Made by a program: the position numbers and the translations under genes
In this document: positions 24,455 through 53,660 of the stretch, one piece after another
Position numbering within the stretch: position 1 is the stretch's first letter
Layout: every line of letters begins with the position of its first letter
Source: Psychrobacillus sp. BL-248-WT-3
GTDB lineage: Bacteria; Bacillota; Bacilli; Bacillales_A; Planococcaceae
Length of the DNA stretch: 64,000 nucleotides
Direction of reading: 5' to 3'
Assembly (NCBI RefSeq): GCF_012843435.1
Contig: NZ_JABAFC010000003.1
Coordinates: 124,001 to 188,000, forward strand
Notes under the pieces: generated by a model
Told to the model about the DNA's origin: nothing
Database searches by the model: none
What the model saw: only the letters and a program-made list of their open reading frames with translations

Positions 24455-24554
24455 ATTTCTTTATTAAATGACTAAAAAGCAGTACAAATATGCATTCAAT
24501 TAGCATATATGTGCCGACTGAAACTTAAAAGTATAGCAAGAGGGGGTGTTCGAA

Positions 24555-26114
24555 ATGACATGGGAAATTATCATCTCCGCTTTGCTTGGTCTTATTATCG
24601 GTGGCGCTGTTGGTTACGGTTATCTGAAAAAAGTGAATGATTCAAAAGTGACTGGTGCAAAACAATCTTCTGTACTCATTATAGAGGAAGCAAAGCGAGA
24701 GGCAGAAGCATTAAAGAAAGAAGCACTTTTAGAGGCCAAAGATGAAACTCACCAATTACGAAATGAAGCTGAATCTGACATCCGAGAACGCCGCATGGAA
24801 CTGCAAAAACAGGAAAATCGGTTATTACAAAGAGAAGAGAATCTAGATCGTAAAGATGATGCTCTAAACAAGAGAGAAGTAAGTCTTGAGCGTAAAGAAG
24901 ATGCTCTAACACAAAGACAACAGCATATCGAACAAAAGGAAAGTAAAGTGGATGAACTAGTTGAAGAGCAACAAACAGAGCTACAACGTATTTCTACTCT
25001 TACTCGTGAAGAAGCAAAAACTATCATTCTTCAAGAGGTAGAAAATGAATTGGCTACTGATATTGCTGTGATGACTAAAGAATCTGAAACAAGAGCCAAA
25101 GAAGAGGCTGACAAGAAATCGAGAGAAATACTTTCACTTGCTTTACAAAGGTTTGCAGCAGATCACGTTGCGGAAACTACCGTTTCGGTTGTAAACTTAC
25201 CGAATGACGAGATGAAAGGACGAATTATCGGACGTGAAGGACGAAACATTCGTACACTCGAAACATTGACTGGTATCGATCTTATCATTGACGACACACC
25301 AGAGGCTGTAATTCTTTCCGGGTTCGATCCGATTAGAAGAGAGACTGCTCGATTAGCCCTTGAAAAATTAGTGCAAGATGGACGTATCCATCCTGCTCGA
25401 ATTGAAGAAATGGTAGAGAAGTCTAGAAGAGAAGTAGATGAACAAATTCGCGAAATTGGCGAACAAACTACTTTTGATATAGGTGTTCATAACCTACATC
25501 CAGATTTGATGAAGATTTTAGGCCGTTTAAGATACCGTACAAGTTATGGTCAAAACGTATTAAAACATTCTACTGAAGTTGCCTATTTAGCTGGTCTCTT
25601 AGCTGCAGAGCTTGGAGAAGACGTAACACTTGCTAGACGTGCAGGCTTATTACACGACATCGGAAAAGCAATTGACCATGAAGTGGAAGGAAGTCACGTT
25701 GAAATAGGTGTAGAACTTGCAAGAAAGTATAAAGAACATCCGGTAGTAATTAATAGTATTGCTTCCCATCACGGAGATACAGAAGCTACTTCTGTCATTG
25801 CCGTATTAGTAGCAGCAGCAGATGCTTTATCTGCAGCTAGACCTGGTGCAAGAAGTGAAACATTAGAAAATTACATTCGCCGCCTTGAAAAACTAGAGGA
25901 AATTTCAGAATCCTATGAAGGTGTTGAAAAATCCTTTGCTATTCAAGCGGGTAGAGAAATCCGCATTATGGTTCGTCCTGATCAAATCGATGACATTACG
26001 GCTCATCGCTTGGCAAGAGACATCCGTAAGCGAATTGAAGAAGAGCTCGATTATCCTGGTCACATAAAAGTAACTGTAATCAGAGAAACTAGAGCCGTAG
26101 AATACGCAAAATAA
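24555..26114 (+). CDS. rny: Ribonuclease Y
   Basis: RNase Y is the membrane-anchored endoribonuclease that starts decay and processing of many mRNAs in Bacillus. The 519-residue protein has an N-terminal membrane segment (about residues 3-23), a long charged coiled coil (~30-200), a KH domain ([10 protein letters not shown] near 222) and an HD domain with LLHDIGKA near residue 365. ATG 24555 is preferred to GTG 24546 because AGGGGG (24541-24546) fits the ATG and overlaps the GTG. RicA, encoded further on in this window, is known in B. subtilis to act with RNase Y. Confidence 0.96.
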
Positions 26115-26141
26115 AGTAAAAGCAATCATAACATTGAAAAC

Positions 26142-26168
26142 AAAAGGCTTCGAAATGAAGCCTTTTTT
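26142..26168 (+). terminator. Terminator after rny
   Basis: AGGCTTC-GAAAT-GAAGCCT followed by TTTTTTT; stem and T-run are perfect. Confidence 0.9.
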
Positions 26169-26192
26169 TCGTGAAAGGACGTTATTGTAAAA

Positions 26193-26990
26193 ATGAAAAT
26201 ACTATTTATCGGTGATATTGTTGGATCAATTGGTAGAGATACCTTGGAAAGCTACTTACCAAGACTAAAAAGAAAATATATGCCAGATGTTGTAATTGCC
26301 AATGGGGAGAATGCAGCTGCTGGTAGAGGCATTACGAAAACTATATTTAACTCTCTTTTACATATGGGAGTAGACGTAGTGACGATGGGAAACCATACAT
26401 GGGATCAAAAAGAAATTATGGACTTCATCGATGATACAGATTATTTAATTCGTCCTGCCAATTTTTCAGAAGACGCTCCGGGTAAAGGAATGACCTCTGT
26501 AACGAAAAACGGCCACACTATTTCTGTCATCAATATGCATGGTAGAACATTCTTACCGCCACACGATGATCCATTTAAAATGGCAACTGAAATGGTTGAA
26601 GAAGCTAAGCAGCTATCCCCAATTGTATTTGTAGACTTTCATGCAGAAGCGACAAGTGAAAAAATTGCCTTTGGATGGCATTTAGACGGCAAGGCCTCTG
26701 TTGTAGTAGGAACTCATACGCATGTACAAACAGCGGATTCTCGTATTCTTCCTGGCGGCACTGCTTATATTACAGATGTCGGAATGACAGGTCCTTATGA
26801 TGAAGTATTAGGGATGAAAAAAGAGGACGTACTATACCGTTTCCAAACAAATATGCCAACTCGCTTTGAAGTACCGAAGAGCGGTCGTTCGGTGCTAAGT
26901 GGATTTTTCGTAGAGGTGGATAACCAAACTGGTAAAGCGACACATCAAGAGAGAATATATATTAACGAAGATTATCCATTTGAAGCATAA
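26193..26990 (+). CDS. ymdB: YmdB metallophosphoesterase
   Basis: YmdB is a metal-dependent phosphodiesterase that affects biofilm/motility decisions in B. subtilis. The 265-residue protein carries the family motifs GDIVGSIGRD (residues ~6-15), NGENAAAGRG, GNHTWDQKE and VGTHTHVQTAD, which supply the two-metal ligands. It follows rny by 78 bp with a terminator between, as in Bacillus, where the two are transcribed together in part. AAAGGA lies upstream of the ATG. Confidence 0.94.
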   Translation: MKILFIGDIVGSIGRDTLESYLPRLKRKYMPDVVIANGENAAAGRGITKTIFNSLLHMGVDVVTMGNHTWDQKEIMDFIDDTDYLIRPANFSEDAPGKGMTSVTKNGHTISVINMHGRTFLPPHDDPFKMATEMVEEAKQLSPIVFVDFHAEATSEKIAFGWHLDGKASVVVGTHTHVQTADSRILPGGTAYITDVGMTGPYDEVLGMKKEDVLYRFQTNMPTRFEVPKSGRSVLSGFFVEVDNQTGKATHQERIYINEDYPFEA

Positions 26991-27025
26991 AAAAGTCTAA
27001 AAAATTTCTTCCGAGCATAAGTTAG

Positions 27026-27051
27026 TTTATGAACGAAAGCAAGTTCATAAA
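27026..27051. other. Inverted repeat upstream of spoVS
   Basis: TTTATGAAC and GTTCATAAA form a perfect 9-bp inverted repeat around GAAAGCAA, 26 bp upstream of the spoVS start. It could be a leader hairpin or an operator; no T-run follows. Confidence 0.4.
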
Positions 27052-27076
27052 TATAGCGATAAAAGGAGAAATGATA

Positions 27077-27343
27077 GTGGATTCTTTAAAAGTATCTTCT
27101 CGTTCAAACCCCAATTCAGTTGCTGGTGCATTAGTTGCAGTTATAAGAGAACAAGGTTACGCAGAAATGCAGGCAGTAGGCGCAGGAGCATTAAACCAAG
27201 CTATAAAAGCTATTGCTATTGCAAGAGGATTTGTTGCTCCTAGTGGAACAGACCTAACTTGCTCACCGGCGTTCACAGATATTATTATTTCTGGTGAAGA
27301 TCGAACTGCTTTGAAATTATTGGTAGAAAAGAAATCAAAATAA
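27077..27343 (+). CDS. spoVS: Stage V sporulation protein S
   Basis: SpoVS is a small Alba-fold protein required for efficient spore coat assembly and completion of stage V. The 88-residue sequence is close to the 86-residue B. subtilis protein, with LKVSSRSNPNSVAGALV, GAGALNQAIKAIAIARGF and APSGTDL. I choose GTG 27077 because AAAGGAG is eight bases upstream and because this gives the conserved length; ATG 27071 is only 2 bases from that site, and a further in-frame ATG at 27029 would add residues absent from the family. Confidence 0.93.
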   Translation: MDSLKVSSRSNPNSVAGALVAVIREQGYAEMQAVGAGALNQAIKAIAIARGFVAPSGTDLTCSPAFTDIIISGEDRTALKLLVEKKSK

Positions 27344-27400
27344 TATATAGCAGCAAGGCTTTCTTCACAAAAGGCTTGGTACTCTATATAAAGTTTCACA

Positions 27401-27436
27401 AAAAGCCGCTACTGTCTTTAGTAGCGGCTTATAATT
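27401..27436 (+). terminator. Terminator after spoVS
   Basis: AAGCCGCTACT pairs with AGTAGCGGCTT and is followed by ATAATTT; the stem is strong and the T-tract weak. Confidence 0.7.
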
Positions 27437-27465
27437 TGCGTTTCCATACTTTTTTGAATAAATCG

Positions 27466-27484
27466 TGACGGAGGGGTTCCGTCA
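27466..27484. other. Small perfect hairpin upstream of korA
   Basis: TGACGGA-GGGGT-TCCGTCA has seven perfect pairs. It lies about 110 bp before korA in a gap that lacks an obvious sigma-A promoter. Its role is unknown. Confidence 0.35.
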
Positions 27485-27594
27485 AAGGTCTGAAATTCCA
27501 TAAAAGTACAGGTAATACATAGTGTATATCGCTACTTCGTGATAAACTAATGAAGGAAAAAAGCATTTAAAGAGAACAGTAAGGAGATGTTTAT

Positions 27595-29349
27595 ATGTTG
27601 CAACAGCTTTCTTGGAAAGTAGGAGGGCAGCAAGGAGAGGGTATTGAGAGTACAGGCGAAATATTCTCTATGGCTATGAATCGCCTTGGGTACTACTTAT
27701 ATGGATACCGTCATTTCTCTTCTCGAATTAAAGGCGGACATACTAATAATAAAATTTGTGTGCGTCCTACTCAAGTACGTACCATTCCAGATAACTTAGA
27801 TATTTTAGTGGCATTTGATCAAGAAACGATTGAAGTCAATTATAAAGAGCTTACAGAAAAAAGTATCATACTAGCAGATGCTAAATTTTCACCAGAGGCA
27901 CCAGAGGACTGTTTAGCACCAATGTATATCGTACCTTTTACAGAGATTGCTTCTAGCCTTGGAACCTCTCTCATGAAGAACATGGTGGCAATTGGAGCTA
28001 CGTCTGCTTTATTAAACCTAGACAAAGCCGTTTTCCAAGGAGTCGTTGATGAAATCTTTGGTAAAAAAGGTGAAGAAGTTGTAGAAAAAAATATGCAGGC
28101 GATTCAACAAGGATATGACACGATGGCTGAGCAGCTTGGGGACCGTCTTGGAGAGTGGGAAATAGCTCCAGCTGACGGCAAACAGCGTTTATTCATGATT
28201 GGTAATGATGCAATAGCTATGGGCGCATTAACTGCAGGCGTACGCTTTATGGCAGCTTATCCAATTACTCCAGCTTCTGAAATAATGGAGTATATGATTA
28301 AAAAGCTACCTCTATTTGGAGGAGCAGTCATTCAAACAGAAGATGAAATTGCTGCAGCAACAATGGCAATTGGTTCTAACTACGGTGGTGTACGTGCATT
28401 TACAGCGTCTGCAGGGCCTGGCCTGTCTCTAATGATGGAAGCAATCGGATTGTCCGGGATGACCGAGCAACCATTAGTAATTGTCGACACACAGCGTGGG
28501 GGTCCATCTACAGGATTACCGACCAAACAAGAGCAGTCTGATTTAATGCAAATGATCTACGGTACGCATGGGGAAATTCCAAAGGTGGTCATTGCACCAA
28601 GTACTGGAGAAGAAGCGTTCTACGATACAATCCAAGCTTTTAATATTGCTGAAGAATTGCAGCTACCTGTCATTATTCTTTCGGACTTACAGCTATCACT
28701 TGGTAAGCAAACAGTGGAGCCATTTGATTATTCGAAAATAGAAATCCGTCGTGGTCGTTTAATGGACAACGAAGAGCTTCCAGAAACAGAAGATAAAAGT
28801 TATTTCAAACGATACGAAGTAACCGAAGATGGTATTTCACCACGTGTATTACCAGGTATGAAGCATGCAATTCACCATGTAACAGGTGTAGAGCATGATG
28901 AAACTGGCAAACCTTCTGAAGCCGCATTAAACCGTCAAGCTCAAATGGACAAGCGTATGAAAAAATTAAAGTTTGTTAACTTCGATGAGCCAGTGTACGT
29001 TAACGCTCCTCATGAAGAAGCAGATATATTATTTGTAGGATTCAATTCTACTCGCGGAGTACTAGAAGAACTACAACAAACACTAAATGACAATGGAGTG
29101 AAAGTGAACCATGCACATATTCGCTTAATTCACCCATTCCCAACCGAACAAATGCAGCCGCTAGTAGCTAAAGCTAAAAAAGTAGTAGTGGTAGAAAACA
29201 ATGCAACAGGACAATTGGCAAACATTATTAAAATGAACGTCGGCGGTCATGACAAAATAGTGAGTGTATTGAAATATGATGGCACTCCATTCCTGCCATT
29301 AAGTCTTGCAAAACAAGTGAAGGAGATGCTAACAGATGGTAACATTTAA
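27595..29349 (+). CDS. korA: 2-oxoacid:acceptor oxidoreductase, fused gamma-alpha subunit
   Basis: The 584-residue protein joins the gamma domain (residues ~1-180; GGQQGEGIESTGEIF, SSRIKGGHTNNKI) to the alpha domain (AYPITPASEIMEY near residue 219; QTEDEIAAATMAIG). With the beta subunit it forms the thiamine-pyrophosphate enzyme that oxidises 2-oxoglutarate or a similar oxoacid to the acyl-CoA, passing electrons to ferredoxin. It overlaps the beta gene by 14 bp. The same pair precedes miaB in B. cereus-type genomes. The precise oxoacid is inferred from family members. Confidence 0.9.
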   Translation: MLQQLSWKVGGQQGEGIESTGEIFSMAMNRLGYYLYGYRHFSSRIKGGHTNNKICVRPTQVRTIPDNLDILVAFDQETIEVNYKELTEKSIILADAKFSPEAPEDCLAPMYIVPFTEIASSLGTSLMKNMVAIGATSALLNLDKAVFQGVVDEIFGKKGEEVVEKNMQAIQQGYDTMAEQLGDRLGEWEIAPADGKQRLFMIGNDAIAMGALTAGVRFMAAYPITPASEIMEYMIKKLPLFGGAVIQTEDEIAAATMAIGSNYGGVRAFTASAGPGLSLMMEAIGLSGMTEQPLVIVDTQRGGPSTGLPTKQEQSDLMQMIYGTHGEIPKVVIAPSTGEEAFYDTIQAFNIAEELQLPVIILSDLQLSLGKQTVEPFDYSKIEIRRGRLMDNEELPETEDKSYFKRYEVTEDGISPRVLPGMKHAIHHVTGVEHDETGKPSEAALNRQAQMDKRMKKLKFVNFDEPVYVNAPHEEADILFVGFNSTRGVLEELQQTLNDNGVKVNHAHIRLIHPFPTEQMQPLVAKAKKVVVVENNATGQLANIIKMNVGGHDKIVSVLKYDGTPFLPLSLAKQVKEMLTDGNI

Positions 29350-30202
29350 AGATTTTCGTAACAATGTAAAACCAAACTGGTGCCCAGGATGTGGTGACTT
29401 TTCTGTGCAAGCAGCAATACAGCGTGCAGCAGCAAACGTAGGCATCCAGCCGCATGATTTAGCAGTCATCTCTGGTATCGGATGTTCTGGACGTATTTCT
29501 GGCTATATCCATTCTTATGGCTTCCATGGTATCCACGGCAGAGCTTTACCAATTGCACAAGGTTTAAAAATGGCTAATAAGGATTTACACGTAATCGCAT
29601 CTGGTGGTGACGGAGATGGGTTTGCCATTGGTATGGGACACACAATCCACTCAATTCGCCGTAATATTGATTTGACCTATGTAGTAATGGACAACCAGAT
29701 TTATGGATTGACTAAAGGACAAACATCTCCACGTTCAGCAGAAGGCTTTAAAACGAAGTCTACTCCAGGTGGAGCAATAGAACCTTCCGTTAAACCACTG
29801 GAGCTGGCACTGACTTCTGGGGCTACATTTGTCGCACAGGGCTTCTCTTCAGATATTAAAGAATTAACTGCAATTATTGAAGCAGGAATTCAGCATAAAG
29901 GCTTCTCATTTATTAACGTGTTCAGCCCATGTGTCACTTATAACAAAGTAAACACATATGACTGGTTCAAAGAGAATTTAACGAAGCTATCTAATGTGGA
30001 AGGCTACGACTCCACTAATCGTGAGGAAGCAATGCGAGTAGTAATGGAAAATGAAGGACTAGTAACTGGAATCATCTATCAGGATGAAAATGCACCTTCT
30101 TACCAGGATCAAGTACCTGGATATGCTCCAACACCGCTTGTTGATCAAAACTTGAAGATGAGTGAAAAAGAGTTTGATGCATTGTTAAAAGATTTTATGT
30201 AA
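29336..30202 (+). CDS. korB: 2-oxoacid:ferredoxin oxidoreductase, beta subunit
   Basis: This 288-residue subunit binds thiamine pyrophosphate and an iron-sulfur cluster. Visible motifs are WCPGCGDFSV (CxxC near residue 17), GIGCSGRISGY, the TPP motif GGDGDGFAIG and MDNQIYGLTKGQTSP. AAGGAG inside the end of korA serves as its ribosome binding site. A strong terminator ends the operon and the periodic array begins soon after. Confidence 0.93.
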   Translation: MVTFKDFRNNVKPNWCPGCGDFSVQAAIQRAAANVGIQPHDLAVISGIGCSGRISGYIHSYGFHGIHGRALPIAQGLKMANKDLHVIASGGDGDGFAIGMGHTIHSIRRNIDLTYVVMDNQIYGLTKGQTSPRSAEGFKTKSTPGGAIEPSVKPLELALTSGATFVAQGFSSDIKELTAIIEAGIQHKGFSFINVFSPCVTYNKVNTYDWFKENLTKLSNVEGYDSTNREEAMRVVMENEGLVTGIIYQDENAPSYQDQVPGYAPTPLVDQNLKMSEKEFDALLKDFM

Positions 30203-30210
30203 ATGAATAC

Positions 30211-30246
30211 TAAGCTCATGAACGATTATCGTTCATGAGCTTTTTT
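30211..30246 (+). terminator. Terminator after korB
   Basis: AAGCTCATGAACGA pairs with TCGTTCATGAGCTT around a 3-base loop, followed by TTTTT. Confidence 0.93.
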
Positions 30247-30300
30247 GTGTTTATAGGGATAATTAAGAGTAGAATCTCTGCTAAGGATGTGTGGATGGTT

Positions 30301-30880
30301 GCACGTAAATGTTGGGAGGTGCACTTGTAGGGGGTAGGAGCGCACCTAAGCGAGAGAGTTGCACCTAAATAGTGTGGAGCCGCACCTAAAGGGTTGAGAA
30401 GTGCACGTAAAGTATATGGAAGTGTCACCTAAAGGATAGGAAAGCGCACCTAAACGAGAGAGTTGCACATTAATAGTGTGGAGCCGCACCTAAAGGGGTG
30501 AGAAGAGCACGTAAAGTATGTGGAAGTGTCACCTAAAGGATAGGAAAGTGCACCTAAGCGAGTGAAACCGCCCATAAGTAATAGCAAAGTGTCCCATAAC
30601 AAGTTGAGAACCGCCCATAAAGTATGGACAAGTGTCCCATAAATCACAGTAAACCGCCCATAAACAAAGAAACCGCCCATAAGTAATAGCAAAGTGTCCC
30701 ATAACAAGTTGAAAACCGCCCATAAAGCATAGACAAGTGTCCCATAAATCACAGTAAACCGCCCATAAACAAAGAAACCGCCCATAAGTAATAGTAAAGT
30801 GTCCCATAACAAGTTGAAAGCAGCCCATAAAGCATGGACAAGTGCCCCATAAACTCCAACAAACCACCCATAACCAGAAA
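30301..30880. repeat. Array of ~28 short cores at 21-bp period (two core types)
   Basis: Short GC-rich cores recur every 19-22 bp. From 30301 to about 30558 the core is (G)CACCTAAA; from about 30568 to 30880 it is CCGCCCATAA or GTCCCATAA, alternating. Taking the cac/ccc triplet as the marker, positions include 30343, 30362, 30383, 30404, 30426, 30447, then 30571, 30593, 30614, 30636, 30657, 30676, 30698. A five-unit block of 104-105 bp repeats in both halves (30343/30447/30551 and 30571/30676/30781). Spacers are A- and G-rich and also repeat by block. The arrangement is too short in unit and spacer for CRISPR. Two weak extra cores at 31016 and 31038 keep a 22-bp spacing. Confidence 0.9.
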
Positions 30881-31077
30881 CTCACCAAACCGCCATACCA
30901 GAAGTTTCTCCTAAACCACCATTACAACTTAAAAAAGGACCCCCTAAAACAAGGGAATCCCAGCAGAACAACCTCTATTATTCAAATCACAATCTTATCT
31001 AATTCCCATTAAGTGCACTATATAAACCAAAAAACCGCACATATTTTGTCTAAATAAGAAATTTTAAGCTTAATGCC
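30881..31077. other. Non-coding stretch between array and miaB promoter
   Basis: AT-rich DNA without a gene. It holds decayed array-like cores (GTGCACTATAAA near 31014 and CCGCACATAT near 31036) and a C-rich/G-rich imperfect hairpin at about 30935-30960. Confidence 0.5.
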
Positions 31078-31107
31078 TTGTAGCAATGGAGCACTATTCA
31101 GTATAAT
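31078..31107 (+). promoter_or_regulatory. Sigma-A promoter for miaB
   Basis: TTGTAG (31078-31083), an 18-bp spacer and perfect TATAAT (31102-31107), 47 bp before the miaB start. Confidence 0.65.
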
Positions 31108-31153
31108 AGGATGGATATTCGGATTTTGGCGAATGAAAGAAAGGGGAGTTCTT

Positions 31154-32701
31154 ATGAACGAGGAATCACGTTTACAAAGTACTCAAATAAAAGAAACTAC
31201 TTCTCCCGAGAAAAACGTGGAGAAAGATTATAGCAAATATTTTCAAGCAGTTTACACTCCCCCGTCCTTAAAAGATGCAAAAAAACGTGGGAAAGAAGAA
31301 GTGGCTTATCACAACGACTTTTCAATTGCAGATGAATTCAAAGGGATGGGACAAAATCGTAAATTTTATATACGTACCTATGGATGTCAAATGAATGAAC
31401 ATGACACAGAAGTAATGGCTGGGATTTTCATGCAGTTGGGATATGAGCCAACTAATACAGTGGAAGATGCGAATGTCATCCTTTTAAATACTTGTGCTAT
31501 TCGTGAAAACGCGGAGAACAAAGTATTTGGTGAACTTGGTCATTTAAAGCATTTAAGAAGAAATAATCCTGATTTGCTAATCGGTGTATGTGGATGTATG
31601 TCCCAGGAAGAATCCGTAGTAAAGAAAATTTTGAAAACGTACGATCAAGTAGATATGATTTTTGGTACACACAATATTCACCGTCTACCTAACATTCTTA
31701 ATGAGGCGTACCTATCAAAAGAGATGGTTATTGAAGTATGGTCTAAAGAAGGGGATGTAATAGAGAACCTTCCGCGAGTGCGTAAGGGGTCTATTAAAGC
31801 CTGGGTTAACATTATGTATGGCTGTGATAAGTTCTGTACATATTGCATCGTGCCATATACACGAGGTAAAGAGCGTAGCCGTCGACCAGAGGATATTATT
31901 CAAGAAATTCGCCACCTTGCAGCTCAAGGCTATAAGGAAATTACACTTCTTGGTCAGAATGTAAACGCTTATGGAAAAGACTTTACTGACTTAGATTATC
32001 GTTTTGGTGACTTAATGGATGATTTAAATAAAATTGATGTAGCGAGAATTCGTTTTATGACTAGTCATCCTAGAGATTTTGATGACCATTTAATCGAAGT
32101 TTTAGCAAAGGGTGGCAACTTGGTAGAGCATATTCATTTACCAGTTCAGTCAGGATCATCTGATATTCTAAAAATTATGGCTCGTAAATATACAAGAGAA
32201 CATTATTTAGAGCTAGTAAGAAAGATTAAAACAGCTATTCCGAATGCCTCATTGTCAACCGACATTATTGTTGGTTTCCCTAATGAAACGGACGAACAAT
32301 TTGAGGAAACACTATCTCTTTATAAAGAGGTAGGATTTGAAATTGCATACACTTATATTTATTCTCCACGTGAAGGTACTCCAGCAGCTAAAATGATTGA
32401 TAACGTGCCAATGGAAGTGAAGAAGGAAAGACTTCAACGTTTAAATGCACTAGTAAACGAAATGTCTGCAGAGGCAATGAAAAAGCTTGAAGGTGATATT
32501 GTGGAGGTATTGGTAGAAGGGGAAAGTAAAAATAACCCTGATGTACTTGCTGGATATACCCGAAAAAGCAAACTAGTGAATTTTGTTGGACCTAAAGATA
32601 TTATCGGGAAGCTTGTTCAAGTTAAAATTACAAATGCAAAAACATGGTCACTTACTGGTGAACTAGTAGAAGAAACAATTGAAGAAAAGGTGGGTATATA
32701 A
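31154..32701 (+). CDS. miaB: tRNA-2-methylthio-N6-dimethylallyladenosine synthase
   Basis: MiaB is the radical-SAM methylthiotransferase that modifies A37 of tRNAs reading UNN codons. The 515-residue protein has the N-terminal UPF0004 domain with cluster cysteines in [17 protein letters not shown] and [10 protein letters not shown], the radical SAM motif CDKFCTYC (about residues 224-231) and a C-terminal TRAM domain. ATG 31154 is chosen for the AAGGGGAG upstream; the frame is open further back but carries no site. Its stop overlaps the ricA ATG by one base. Confidence 0.96.
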
Positions 32702-33135
32702 TGACTACTAAATACACTAGAGACGATATTATTGAGAAGGCTAGAGAAATAGCTACTATGATTGCAAACACGGAAGAAGTTGACTTCTTTAAACGTGCAG
32801 AAGCACAAATTAATGAAAATCAATCCGTACGCGAGAAAATTGCTAGCTTAAAGAGCTTACAAAAACAAGCAGTTAACTTCCAGCATCTTGGAAAAGAAAA
32901 AGCATTGAAGATGATTGAAGGTAAAATTGCTGCAATCGAAGAAGAAATCGACAGTATTCCAATTGTTCAAGAATTTAAGCAATCTCAAGGTGATGTAAAT
33001 AGTCTGTTACAGCTAGTTGCTAATTCAATCTCAAACAATGTTACTAACCAAATTATTGAATCTACCGAAGGTGATCTTCTTAGAGGAGAAACTGGTTCTA
33101 AGGTTAAAAACACTACTTACGATAGCTGTTCATAA
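32701..33135 (+). CDS. ricA: RicA (YmcA) regulator of RNA processing and cell fate
   Basis: RicA (YmcA) forms a complex with RicF and RicT that carries iron-sulfur clusters and stimulates RNase Y processing; it is needed for sporulation, competence and biofilm formation in B. subtilis. The 144-residue helical protein is of the YlbF/YmcA family, with a charged coiled helix in the middle (VREKIASLKSLQKQAVNFQH) and a single cysteine two residues from the C-terminus (DSCS), the position of the RicA cluster ligand. It is translationally coupled to miaB (TAATG). Confidence 0.9.
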   Translation: MTTKYTRDDIIEKAREIATMIANTEEVDFFKRAEAQINENQSVREKIASLKSLQKQAVNFQHLGKEKALKMIEGKIAAIEEEIDSIPIVQEFKQSQGDVNSLLQLVANSISNNVTNQIIESTEGDLLRGETGSKVKNTTYDSCS

Positions 33136-33147
33136 TGATAAACGACA

Positions 33148-33188
33148 AAACATACACTGTATCTACACGATACAATGTATGTTTTTTT
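33148..33188 (+). terminator. Terminator after ricA
   Basis: AACATACACTGTATC pairs with GATACAATGTATGTT and is followed by TTTTTT. Confidence 0.9.
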
Positions 33189-33275
33189 ATTTGGACAAAA
33201 TTCTTATTGTCTATTGAAATCTCTGGAATTAACGCTCGCTACTTTTCTGCAAATTAACGGAATTTACTTAATTAA

Positions 33276-33306
33276 TTGACATCGTATGAAGTATTTATGA
33301 TAGAAT
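33276..33306 (+). promoter_or_regulatory. Candidate promoter of the TRAP operon
   Basis: A consensus TTGACA (33276-33281) is followed by TAGAAT (33301-33306) at 19 bp. The long spacing lowers confidence. Confidence 0.4.
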
Positions 33307-33355
33307 TATAGAGAACAAAGGGTACTTTTATATAAAAAGGGAGGAAATGTAAAAT

Positions 33356-34360
33356 ATGAAAACTAGACAATTTAAATGGTTAGCAGTCTTAAGCATTTTT
33401 GCTTTAGTATTTTTAGCAGCTTGTGGAACTAGTGACTCCGATAGTGGGTCAGACTCGGGTTCTGGGGACTCAGCCAAAACAAAAGCAGATTATAAATTTT
33501 TAAGTATATTAACTGGTGGAACGCAAGGTACGTATTACCCACTAGGTGGTACTTTTGCTGATTTAGTTACTGAAGAGACAGGTATAAAAACAACTGCTGA
33601 GGTATCTCAAGCTTCCGCTGCGAATATGACAGCTTTACATGAAGATGATGAAGGGCAAATTGCCTTCGTACAAACTGATATCGCTTATTATGGTACAGAA
33701 GGAACAGAAATGTTCGAAGGAAACAAGTTAGATACGGTAGTTGCAATTGGTGCACTTTATCCAGAAACGGTTCAACTAGTTACCTTAGCGGATTCAGGAA
33801 TTAATTCATTTGAGGATCTTAAAGGCAAAAAGGTTTCTGTAGGGGCTCCTGGTTCAGGAACATATGCAAATGCTGAGCAACTTTTAGAAATTCATGGTCT
33901 ATCAATAGAAGATGATATTGAAGCTCAAAACTTAGATTTTGGTGAATCTACTGATGGGTTATCAACTGGACAAATTCAAGCTGCATTTATCACTGCAGGT
34001 TACCCAACTTCCGCAGTGGAAGCTTTAAATGCAACTAAAAAAGTAAATATTATTTCTGTTACAGAAGATAAAGCAAAAGAACTTATTGAAAAATATCCTT
34101 ATTATGCTGTAGATGCTGTGCCTAAAGGTACTTACGGTCTTTCTGAAGAAGTTCCAGTAGTTTCTGTATTAGCAATGCTAGCAGTTAAGAAAGACCTTCC
34201 AGAGGATTTAGTTTATGAAATCACAAAAGCGATTTATGGCAATACAGATAAAATTAGCCATGCTAAAGGTGAATTTATTAAAGCAGAAACAGCTCTAGAT
34301 GGTATTGGAATAGAAGTTCATCCAGGTGCTCAAAAATATTTTGATGAAGTAAACAAGTAA
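33356..34360 (+). CDS. TAXI-family TRAP transporter solute-binding lipoprotein
   Basis: This 334-residue extracytoplasmic solute receptor is of the TAXI group of TRAP transporters, which use ion gradients to import organic acids. The signal peptide ends in lipobox LAACG and is followed by a Ser/Asp/Gly linker. The mature domain has the family landmark GGTQGTYYPLGG and the VSVGAPGSGTYANAEQLL segment. It stands first in a three-gene operon with a DUF1850 protein and a fused permease; a weak terminator-like hairpin follows, allowing more receptor than permease. The substrate cannot be read; glutamate-like acids are a guess from relatives. Confidence 0.9.
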   Translation: MKTRQFKWLAVLSIFALVFLAACGTSDSDSGSDSGSGDSAKTKADYKFLSILTGGTQGTYYPLGGTFADLVTEETGIKTTAEVSQASAANMTALHEDDEGQIAFVQTDIAYYGTEGTEMFEGNKLDTVVAIGALYPETVQLVTLADSGINSFEDLKGKKVSVGAPGSGTYANAEQLLEIHGLSIEDDIEAQNLDFGESTDGLSTGQIQAAFITAGYPTSAVEALNATKKVNIISVTEDKAKELIEKYPYYAVDAVPKGTYGLSEEVPVVSVLAMLAVKKDLPEDLVYEITKAIYGNTDKISHAKGEFIKAETALDGIGIEVHPGAQKYFDEVNK

Positions 34361-34368
34361 TCATTAGT

Positions 34369-34408
34369 GAAAAGAGGCTTTGATGCGTACAGCTTCGAGT
34401 CTCTTTTC
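34369..34408 (+). terminator. Terminator-like hairpin after the TAXI receptor gene
   Basis: AAAAGAGGCT pairs with AGTCTCTTTT around a loop of about 18 bases, followed by CTAATT. Likely partial. Confidence 0.5.
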
Positions 34409-34432
34409 TAATTAAGAGAGGCTTTCCACTTC

Positions 34433-34942
34433 ATGAAAAATAAAATAATTATTGTTCTTATAATGATAACTTTCTCTTTTATCTTTATACCTTTTGTACC
34501 TGCCCTCTCCTTTACCGAAACACGTACGGAATTACCAATTACTCATTATCTTCCTTTAAAAAAGGAAAAAGAATTCCAAATTATTTTTACTCATACTATA
34601 CATAAAACAGATGTTATTGAAAATTACCGGGTACTAAATAACAAGGAAATTCTCTTACTAACAATGGAATATAGTGACGTTGCGATTGGAATGCCGAGCT
34701 ACGCAGAAGAGGGGCAAACACTTGTATATAAAGATGGTTTATACACTCTATCGTATGCTCATGAAGCGTTGCCTTCTTTTACTATGTTTGTAGGAGATGT
34801 TGAAGATCAGCTTTTTTTACAATACCAAAAGAAGAAATACAATTTAAAAGTAAAACTAGAAAAAGGGAAATCTTATTTATTCGAAGTGAAAAAGCTATCA
34901 TTATTTGACATAGCGAGAGGAGTTAACCTGAATGAGCAATAA
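34433..34942 (+). CDS. DUF1850 domain protein of the TRAP operon
   Basis: The 169-residue protein has one N-terminal hydrophobic segment (about residues 4-25, signal or anchor) and an extracellular beta-rich DUF1850 region with FTHTIHKTDVIENYRV, a typical family start. DUF1850 genes commonly sit between TAXI receptors and fused TRAP permeases; the role is unknown, perhaps assembly or receptor contact. It overlaps the permease gene by 11 bp, supporting a common function. Confidence 0.8.
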   Translation: MKNKIIIVLIMITFSFIFIPFVPALSFTETRTELPITHYLPLKKEKEFQIIFTHTIHKTDVIENYRVLNNKEILLLTMEYSDVAIGMPSYAEEGQTLVYKDGLYTLSYAHEALPSFTMFVGDVEDQLFLQYQKKKYNLKVKLEKGKSYLFEVKKLSLFDIARGVNLNEQ

Positions 34943-36956
34943 TAAAGGCAATAAAAAAGAGCGGAATGCAGAAGAAAGTAATTTTAAAGAGTTGTCAGCT
35001 GAGGAACAGCAGGCGCTGCTAGAGAAATACGATCCAGAATCTAATACACGTAGTGTAGGTAGTAATTTTAAATATGTTATTTATTTTGGCTTGCTAGCAT
35101 TCTCTTTATTTCAGTTGTATACGGCAATTTTTGGACAGTATCCAGCGCAAATACAGCGTACTGTTCATTTGGGCTTCGGTTTATTATTTGTATTTTTATT
35201 ATTCCCAGCTCGTAAGAAACTTTCTAAAACAAAAATACCGTTTTATGATTATATACTAGGAGCAGCGGCAATTTTTGTAGGAAGCCATTGGGTAATTAAT
35301 TACGAACGACTTGTTAAAAGTTTAGGTGGTCTAGAAACCTTAGACTTTATAGTCGGTTTAGTTGCTATTATATTAGTTTTAGAGGCTGCACGCCGAGCTG
35401 TAGGCTTGCCGATCACTATTATAGCAGGGTTATTTTTAGTATATGCCTATTTTGGAGAATACTTCCCTGCGTTTATGGCTCATCGAGGACAAAGCTTAGA
35501 TAATATCGTTAAGCTAATGTTCTTTTCAACGGATGGAATTCTAGGAACACCGTTAGCAGTTTCCTCTACGTATATTTTTGCATTCCTATTGTTTGGAGCA
35601 TTTCTAGTTAAAACAGGGGTTGGACAGTATTTTAATGACCTGGCAGTAGCTGTTGCTGGGAAAATGGTTGGAGGCCCTGCAAAGGTTGCAATCTTCTCAT
35701 CAGCTTTACAAGGAACTATTTCCGGGAGCTCGGTAGCAAACGTTGTTACTTCAGGATCTTACACCATTCCGATGATGAAATCATTAGGCTATAGAAAAGA
35801 ATTCGCTGGAGCTGTAGAGGCTTCTGCATCAACTGGTGGGCAGTTAATGCCACCGATCATGGGGGCAGCCGCGTTCCTTATGGTAGAATTTATCGGTCGT
35901 GGAGTCACCTACTGGGATATTGCGAAAGCCGCAGCAATTCCAGCGCTTCTTTATTTTACAGGAATTTGGATTATGACTCATTTTGAAGCAAAACGTTTGG
36001 GTTTAAGTGGGTTAACAGATGAACAAATGCCAGATCGTAAAGAAATCTTTAAAAAGATTTATTTAATCTTACCGATTTTCTTAATCATTATTTTAATGAT
36101 GACAGGTGTACCTGTTATCCATGCTGCGTTATATGGCGTGGTAGCATGTATAGTTGTAGGTGCGATTAACAAAAGTACACGTTTAGGGCCAAAAGAAATT
36201 TTAGATGCTTTAGTAGACGGGGCACGAACTGCACTAGGTGTAGTAGCAGCCACTGCTTGTGCTGGGATTATTGTAGGAGTAGTCGTGAAAACAGGATTAG
36301 GTCTTAGTCTAGCAACTAGCTTAGTTAAGCTAGCGGGTGGAAGTATTATACTAACCTTATTCTTCGTTATGATTGCATCTCTAATTTTAGGAATGGGAGC
36401 TCCAACAACAGCAAATTATGTTATAACGTCGACTATTGCTGCACCAGCTATCATTACCTTACTAGCACCAGATGTAGCACAAAATGCAATACCACTAGTT
36501 GTCATATTGTCTGCTCACTTCTTTGTATTCTATTTTGGAATAGTAGCAGATATAACCCCTCCGGTAGCACTGGCCGCCTTTGCAGCCTCGGGTATTTCTG
36601 GTGGAGATCCTATTAAGACAGGTGTTCAATCTTCTAAACTAGCGATTGCCGCCTTTATAATACCTTATATGATTGTATTTTCTCCGACGTTGCTCATGAT
36701 TGATACGACATTCGGGGAAATTATCTGGGTAACATTCACCGCTGTTACTGGAATGATTTCTATTGGAGCAGGTATGATTGGATATTGGTATCGAAAAGTC
36801 AGCTGGATTGAAAGAATACTGGCAATAGGTGCAGGTTTATTGTTAATCTATCCAGAAGGTATTTCTGATATTACAGGGTTAATTATTTTCGCTATATTAT
36901 TCATCATCCAATTATTTACTCGAGAGAAAAAGGAAAAACAAGCTATTGCTCTATAA
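34932..36956 (+). CDS. TRAP transporter fused permease (4TM/12TM)
   Basis: The 674-residue membrane protein fuses the small DctQ-like part (first ~four helices after a charged cytoplasmic N-terminus) to the large DctM-like part. Motifs typical of TAXI-TRAP fused permeases are SALQGTISGSSVANVVTSG near residue 257, GGQLMPPIMGAAAFLM near 301 and LGMGAPTTANYV near 490. The start ATG is served by AGAGGAG at 34916-34922. It completes the uptake system with the upstream TAXI lipoprotein and ends in a strong terminator. Confidence 0.92.
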   Translation: MSNNKGNKKERNAEESNFKELSAEEQQALLEKYDPESNTRSVGSNFKYVIYFGLLAFSLFQLYTAIFGQYPAQIQRTVHLGFGLLFVFLLFPARKKLSKTKIPFYDYILGAAAIFVGSHWVINYERLVKSLGGLETLDFIVGLVAIILVLEAARRAVGLPITIIAGLFLVYAYFGEYFPAFMAHRGQSLDNIVKLMFFSTDGILGTPLAVSSTYIFAFLLFGAFLVKTGVGQYFNDLAVAVAGKMVGGPAKVAIFSSALQGTISGSSVANVVTSGSYTIPMMKSLGYRKEFAGAVEASASTGGQLMPPIMGAAAFLMVEFIGRGVTYWDIAKAAAIPALLYFTGIWIMTHFEAKRLGLSGLTDEQMPDRKEIFKKIYLILPIFLIIILMMTGVPVIHAALYGVVACIVVGAINKSTRLGPKEILDALVDGARTALGVVAATACAGIIVGVVVKTGLGLSLATSLVKLAGGSIILTLFFVMIASLILGMGAPTTANYVITSTIAAPAIITLLAPDVAQNAIPLVVILSAHFFVFYFGIVADITPPVALAAFAASGISGGDPIKTGVQSSKLAIAAFIIPYMIVFSPTLLMIDTTFGEIIWVTFTAVTGMISIGAGMIGYWYRKVSWIERILAIGAGLLLIYPEGISDITGLIIFAILFIIQLFTREKKEKQAIAL

Positions 36957-36960
36957 AAGC

Positions 36961-36996
36961 TAAAACCACGAGCTAATTATGGCTCGTGGTTTTATT
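36961..36996 (+). terminator. Terminator of the TRAP operon
   Basis: AAAACCACGAGC pairs perfectly with GCTCGTGGTTTT around an 8-base loop, followed by ATTTC. Confidence 0.9.
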
Positions 36997-37020
36997 TCAT
37001 ATGTAAAATTATGAATATAT

Positions 37021-53409: not shown

Positions 53410-53540
53410 GTGCTTTTCCCCTTTATCAAATAAATTAATTCTGAAATAGAATCTCTATATTTTATGAGATAGAAAGGAATATAGAACAAGAAAAAGTGAC
53501 AAGATAAAGTATGGTAGATATTGATTGTATTTATGAAGCA
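53410..53540. other. Non-coding stretch left of the CCGACCGATTA array
   Basis: AT-rich DNA that should hold the promoter of the minus-strand small gene; no clear promoter could be picked. Confidence 0.4.
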
Positions 53541-53660
53541 GACCGATCAATTATTTGGAAAAACCGACCGATTAATGAAGTTTACCGACCGATTATTTAG
53601 AGAAACCGACCGATTAATGGAGTCAACCGACCGATTATGAGATAAAACCGTCCGATTACC
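53541..53660. repeat. Array of CCGACCGATTA cores at exactly 21-bp period
   Basis: GACCGAT occurs at 53541, 53566, 53587, 53608 and 53629, and a variant GTCCGAT at 53650. From 53566 on the spacing is 21 bp each time. Spacers are A-rich and differ, though AATGAAG/AATGGAG alternate with TATTTAG/TATGAGA. The first unit is degenerate. The period and the CCG...TTA core style match the larger array at 30301-30880. Confidence 0.88.

Follow-up and report, generated by a model that had tools for sequence, protein, structure and literature searches.

Iterons and partition sites such as parC consist of direct repeats of about 20-22 bp that carry one protein along one face of the helix. Minisatellites (VNTR) and eukaryotic satellite DNA are marked by higher-order blocks, variable copy number and rapid turnover between species, and CRISPR arrays by unique spacers that separate repeats of about 21-48 bp and are about as long as these. 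In the array described here the direct repeats follow one another at about two turns of the helix, as they do in iterons, but where iterons and parC occupy one site per replicon beside the gene for their protein, arrays of the present kind lie at many dispersed chromosomal loci, have several cores and adjoin unrelated genes. As in minisatellites, the number of its 104-bp blocks varies between two strains (G000 and G135, below), yet each unit preserves a short core and drifts elsewhere, a pattern seen also at many loci whose spacers are unrelated. The likeness to CRISPR lies in regular repeats with differing spacers; the difference is a core of about 8-11 bp, spacers of 11-15 bp that recur with their blocks every 104-105 bp, and many loci, so the first-pass annotation of this DNA had rightly called the array non-CRISPR. 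No cas genes were found beside it among the ORFs read from 25000 to 37000, the flanks being korB and a miaB-like gene (Pfam was run on korB).

REP sequences are described, in the portion of the source drawn on here, as extragenic repeats targeted by several IS families, including IS3 and IS256 (PMC1525189). As dispersed extragenic repeats serving as IS targets, the present arrays resemble REP and BIME elements as that portion presents them (PMC1525189). An IS256-family and an IS3-like element lie inside them, and two other elements do not. REP sequences are palindromic, whereas no hairpin-forming unit was found in or near the korB-miaB array, and the arrays consist of direct, phased, block-built repeats with different cores, all used by one element. 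A class of close direct repeats termed 8n4g24, an octamer occurring at least four times with gaps of up to 24 nt, is reported in an excerpt of another study to be enriched in roughly half of the psychrophiles and mesophiles surveyed (PMC4060949). It would include the present arrays, and its description in that excerpt contains neither phase, block, core family nor transposon link (PMC4060949). A search of the open-licence literature returned no account of arrays that are phased and switch cores, or of IS256-family elements using them. The arrays are a kind of dispersed bacterial repeat, and there is a real chance that they form a distinct class.

The array between korB and the miaB-like gene

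The window, the whole stretch of 64,000 nucleotides that was analyzed, comes from the draft genome of Psychrobacillus sp. BL-248-WT-3 (G000; 3.80 Mb in 91 contigs), which was compared with the complete chromosome of a strain of the same species (G135). The features concerned are as follows, all on the forward strand.

29336..30202, +, korB, 2-oxoacid:ferredoxin oxidoreductase beta subunit (Pfam TPP_enzyme_C, PFO_beta_C)
30212..30242, +, hairpin with 15-nt arms, then T-rich DNA (inverted-repeat search)
30301..30880, +, whole phased array, about 26-28 cores in steps of 19-22 bp
30339..30562, +, first half, 104-bp five-unit block in 2.2 copies, cores CACCTAA / CACGTAA
30564..30878, +, second half, 105-bp five-unit block in 3 copies, core CCCATAA, steps 22,21,22,21,19
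30879..30950, +, degenerate array tail with decayed cores (by reading)
31154..32701, +, miaB-like gene, presumed start inside ORF 31073-32701
53529..53658, +, second phased array of the window, core ACCGACCGATTA in five units spaced exactly 21 bp apart, period 21 (42)

The array lies in the gap of about 950 bp between korB and the gene at 31154..32701, which we take to be miaB, and is 3' of a terminator-like hairpin (30212..30242) that is the probable terminator of korB. This hairpin was the sole palindrome found in 29800-31400, in or near the array.

A core scan recovered 28 cores in 30302-30948, where some gaps of 31-43 bp are degenerate cores that were skipped, and chaining with one mismatch recovered 26 in 30330-30880 at steps of 19-22 bp, in keeping with the roughly 28 cores at 19-22 bp described originally. 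The five-unit blocks of 104-105 bp reported in both halves were also borne out, as TRF returned a period of 104 for 30339-30562 (2.2 copies, 93% matches) and of 105 for 30564-30873 (3.0 copies, 93% matches), and a repeat search resolved the blocks into two copies of 104 nt (94%) and three of 105 nt (97%, and 87% to the first). These copies agree with the proposed block duplication. The steps run approximately twice through 19,21,21,22,21 and then repeatedly through 22,21,22,21,19, the shorter recurring step bringing the five-unit block to about ten helical turns. Core-pair distances and chained steps agree on the helical spacing of about 21 bp that had been noted, and core positions are coherent at 10.50 bp with an R of 0.89 that is produced in part by block repetition alone.

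The core switch placed near 30560 is real, from CACCTAA to CCCATAA, but the two cores are less different than had been claimed, since both fit a single motif, C-[AC]-C-[ACG]-TAA(A). Over 255 distinct units in 19 arrays the consensus starts A-rich, passes through two or three variable bases and ends in C-[AC]-C-[ACG]-T-A-A-A, of which the six inner letters were imposed by the search itself. Directly 5' of the CCCATAA cores of the second half, GTGT and CCG alternate. The sequence CACCTAAA occurs 10 times on both strands of the window, 6 of them in the array, against a shuffle mean of 2.64.

We read the gap in 19 Psychrobacillus genomes, the genus being identified by 1929 bp of G140 that match Psychrobacillus sp. 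OK028 exactly, and the miaB-like gene is kept beside the gap in relatives. An array of at least four units is present in 11 of the 19 (G000 and G135 by reading, nine by detector); G134 has three units by eye, and no array is visible in the gap of 7 of the 19. The cores at this one position are CCCATAA/CACCTAA in the present species, CTCCTAAA in G126, ATAGCCCATAAA in G130, G131 and G138, and AATCGCAAGATA in G129, G132, G137, G139 and G141. By reading, G000 has about two copies of the 104-bp block and G135 about one, the gain or loss of units between strains that had been foreseen, and an IS256-family element occupies the gap in G135 and is absent from it in G000. In G125 the gap (L268) exceeds 900 bp and holds GC-rich, hairpin-like stretches of another kind, with no visible phased array.

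Arrays elsewhere in the species and in other genomes

The first-pass annotation would have given way had no spacing preference existed elsewhere in the genome, and such a preference was found. The other core families, the return of the spacing in species with other cores and the transposon insertions escaped that annotation, since they come to light only against further sequence. Pairs of CCCATAA 9-39 bp apart number 112 in G000 against 1 for the reversed control, and 99 of the 100 pairs listed of these 112 are separated by 18-22 bp, the remaining one by 39. For CACCTAA the count is 33 against 3, with 31 of the 33 at 19-22 bp and two at 39. A core-blind detector was run over the window and 400 kb of G135 (20 pieces of 20 kb, a 10% systematic sample), 464 kb together, and returned 18 chains, several of them weak or fragments of one array, against 0 in a Markov control. 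Clear arrays in the G135 sample number five and come from four core families; extrapolated from 5 per 400 kb, the chromosome of this Psychrobacillus species has perhaps some 50 intergenic arrays (Poisson range about 16-113).

The species has at least five core families with a common spacing of about 21 bp and often one step of 18-19 bp per block: CCCATAAA/CACCTAAA, ACCGACCGATTA, TTTACKACAAT, TGCAAGGTT-type and CGCAACACTT-type. The core ACCGACCGATTA, that of the array at 53529-53658 of the window, also belongs to an array hit by the transposon in G135 (L313) and appears in a sample of G133 (L360). The step order is 22,21,22,21,19 or 21,21,22,21,19 in most of a set of 19 arrays, nine from G000 and ten from G135, some of them orthologous between the two; variants are 22,22,22,21,19 and an eight-step form, with blocks of 106 and 169 bp. 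Within one species the step order may be inherited from one ancestral block, which would make these arrays non-independent evidence of selection for phase. Spacer letters vary between loci, and unrelated spacers flank the same core at many of them. The genes beside dispersed arrays are unrelated by reading, and array orientation relative to them follows no firm rule. A replication-strand count gave 10 of 13 arrays, on the basis of the 100 matches listed of 116, with the pair at 923/924 kb taken as one array and the position of the origin assumed, and we claim no strand bias from it.

Blocks with a short step recur in other genomes with other cores, as 21x4+19 = 103 (L226, L227, L231), 21x4+18 = 102 (L228), 21x3+19 = 82 (L222) and 21x5+19 = 124 (L230), and a 104-bp block with CTCCTAAA/CCCCTAAA cores is present in G126 (L209, L257). 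This recurrence with different cores suggests that the spacing rule matters. Steps of 20 and 21 alternate in L221 and L225, and steps of 21 run throughout L112 and L136. Two turns of 10.5 bp are not universal, because some genomes have 20-bp steps throughout (L138, L147 and L206, and also G160, G162 and one array of G182) and G255 has mostly 52 bp.

The core pattern was matched in 39 of 261 genomes of the family, and the reversed control in more, up to 30 times in one, so pattern presence alone proves nothing for a given genome. The high counts that stand out against the control are 88 versus 0 in G000, 116 versus 0 in G135, 35 versus 0 in G182 and 34 versus 0 in G237; the order-level scan took in the same 261 genomes as the family scan. 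In genus g8 the reversed control matched 14-30 times each in G027, G039, G044, G050 and G051, which is perhaps another array family whose core fits. When step bins were compared, the 18-23 bp bin had 17 intergenic chains, the 15-20 bin that overlaps it had 13, and the others had 6, 3, 3 and 5; this is no proof of a special 21 bp, because the 17 include several weak chains that are AT-rich and four units long.

A wider contig scan yielded at least 117 stretches, which outside the Bacillales mostly looked like simple tandem repeats with periods of 7, 9, 18 or 22. Sorted by eye, the Bacillales stretches with variable spacers were retained, namely those of Psychrobacillus OK028, Halobacillus A5, Planococcus 4-30, Rossellomorea marisflavi, B. 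sinesaloumensis, B. litorisediminis and Peribacillus simplex; Bacillus sp. SD088, B. subtilis DE0224 and the Loigolactobacillus rows were excluded for repeated spacers. Steps of 21-22 bp also occur among the non-Bacillales stretches, for example in Nostoc and Psychrobacter. A viral scan gave 40 stretches, whose spacings resemble those of simple tandem repeats of fixed period, and the array of the window had no match in plasmid and phage collections at E 1e-5.

Transposons inside arrays

Many arrays in the draft genome stop at a contig end, and then comes one of two inverted-repeat ends. Both ends belong, in G135, to one element with a 402-aa transposase (Pfam Transposase_mut) and 8-bp target duplications, which on the strength of that domain we take to be a member of the IS256 family. 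Arrays are found on both flanks of five of the six copies in G135, three of them of the CCCATAA type (including that of korB-miaB), one TTTACKACAAT and one ACCGACCGATTA; the sixth copy is inside a gene that by reading is SGNH-hydrolase-like. In G000 there are 23 element ends, comprising 9 pairs joined by target duplication and 5 unpaired, or 12-14 insertions, and all but one of these are in arrays by reading. All 23 ends are within about 75 bp of a contig end, which explains contig breaks in this draft.

The sole insertions outside arrays, L237/L245 in G000 and L308 in G135, hit one and the same SGNH-hydrolase-like gene, at positions that differ between the strains, suggesting that this gene was independently inactivated under selection.

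A strict detector, requiring at least four units within 250 bp of an element end, passed 17 of the 23 ends in G000 and 8 of 12 in G135 (25 of 35 in total). It also passed 2 of 600 random stretches and, among 15 flanks of two control elements, 1 (L319). It missed the G000 ends L235, L238, L241 and L254, which have 3, 3, 2 and 3 units and are flanked by arrays by eye. The control flanks comprise 1 of 10 for another IS3-family element (five copies, orfB 41% identical) and 0 of 5 for a third element, one copy of which (L324) is about 200 bp from an array. The IS3-like element has arrays at 4 of 4 flanks of its two copies. At L298 (G135, 919500-928500) this element and, about 700 bp on, the IS256-family element lie in one array.

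At E up to 1e-100, a search for close relatives of the transposase found them in only 3 of the 261 family genomes, G000 being excluded from this count because contig ends break its copies. G255, from another genus, has six copies of a relative that are 88-90% identical, one with an internal stop, and five of the six are in tandem arrays, the exception (L326) being irregular. The array at L328 has 21-bp steps and was detected on one flank. The other four copies (L329-L332) are in arrays with a period of about 52 bp, roughly five turns of the helix, in which each unit has two sub-cores; at that period, three units are reached by 13 of 300 random stretches as well. The single copy of G244 is outside arrays.

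Since the insertions span arrays of different core families, the target of the transposon is not one core sequence. By the curvature model it is not predicted curvature either. With a wedge model and composition-matched shuffles as reference, 6 of 19 arrays had z above 2 and 6 of 19 were below 0, and intrinsic curvature was set aside as a common feature of the arrays.

Constraint on the cores and what the arrays may be

Compared in register, the block copies of 17 arrays differ at 33 of 1091 core positions and at 237 of 1732 spacer positions (Fisher p 8e-24, with the sites of one array non-independent). Core divergence is thus 4.5 times below spacer divergence, for stretches with at least 72% local identity and with the core required to match in at least one copy, so that pairs mutated in both copies are missed. 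The degenerate position of the core, position 2, differs at 15 of 137. Selection on the core is the simplest reading of this difference, and its main rival is core-restricted gene conversion.

The phased binding platform that the first-pass annotation had offered as speculation is favored by these comparisons, in which block copies keep their cores better than their spacers. We give about even chances to the locus being a member of a dispersed intergenic class of phased nucleoprotein platforms with putative protein binding. The cores would be bound by a DNA-binding protein with sequence specificity, or by a few related proteins, one for each core class, which would line up next to one another along a single helix face and form a filament or wrap between operons. 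As protein specificity drifted the cores would follow, and unequal exchange of blocks would alter array length. The transposases, for their part, may read the bound state or its geometry rather than the letters of the core. Candidate benefits to the cell would be insulation of operons, organization of the nucleoid or a harmless landing pad.

A broader proposal, which we hold tentatively and consider less likely than not, is that such platforms occur throughout the family, with spacing as the conserved information and the core as a fast-changing password, several per genome, and with IS256-family and IS3-like transposases reading the platform itself and so finding gene-sparing landing pads. If the platform reading is true, the arrays would be a bacterial analogue of satellite arrays, dispersed, with higher-order blocks, lasting phase and quickly replaced cores, and would point to an unrecognised, fast-evolving DNA-reading system. 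The transposon association would then be a natural reporter for platforms and a test case for gene-sparing site choice without a fixed sequence.

The low divergence of cores between copies is equally expected of a molecular drive without host function, in which an enzyme would nick or cut the core, repair would copy the core from a neighbor or another array, and phase would reflect the geometry of the synapse. The uniformity of cores across the dispersed arrays of a genome, and their change between species, fit such a process. We nevertheless regard it as rather unlikely, because about 8 bp are conserved around the free base at position 2, which conversion tracts would not leave variable, and several core families would need several enzymes; we know of no such enzyme.

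Slippage and unequal exchange alone, acting on a neutral minisatellite without constraint, could supply the block copies, the difference in copy number between the two strains at korB-miaB and the intergenic, strain-variable placement of the arrays. Spacers that differ while cores stay, the 18-22 bp distance in nearly all CCCATAA pairs listed and the same core amid unrelated spacers at many loci make this improbable.

A transcribed RNA whose cores act as sites or a sponge for an RNA-binding protein is conceivable from the position of some arrays 3' of a terminator-like hairpin of a co-directional gene, where read-through is possible. Rfam gave 0 matches at E up to 1 in 29000-32000 of the window, and the folding of six stretches against shuffles gave z values of 0.96, 0.08, -1.86, 1.37, -0.14 and 0.80, none below -2. 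Orientation to genes varies, moreover, and a two-turn phase of B-DNA has no evident meaning for an RNA, so that we think this reading has little chance of being correct.

The strong association of IS256-family ends with arrays might instead mean that transposons made the arrays, for instance by imprecise excision or duplication of their ends. The 8-bp target duplications indicate insertion into pre-existing arrays, however, and the korB-miaB array of G000 is without an element; empty array sites of this kind largely refute the idea, and a close relative of the transposase is limited to 3 of the 261 genomes while arrays are found in other genomes too. Such an origin is therefore very improbable.

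A decayed coding repeat, which the first-pass annotation had named as an explanation that would refute it, can be practically dismissed, for although ORFs of 120 and 119 aa overlap the array of the window in two reverse frames, with ORFs of up to 205 aa in other type-1 arrays and of 130 aa or longer over 5 of 8 arrays from other genomes, steps of 22, 20 and 19 shift the frame and stop triplets are undepleted on both strands of 8880 bp of arrays (on the reverse strand 314 where 279 are expected, on the core strand 774 where 648 are expected).

Elsewhere in the window, a 42-bp tandem repeat of 2.2 copies at 24827-24917 lies inside the 522-aa ORF 24546-26114, presumably RNase Y; it is coding and unrelated to the arrays.
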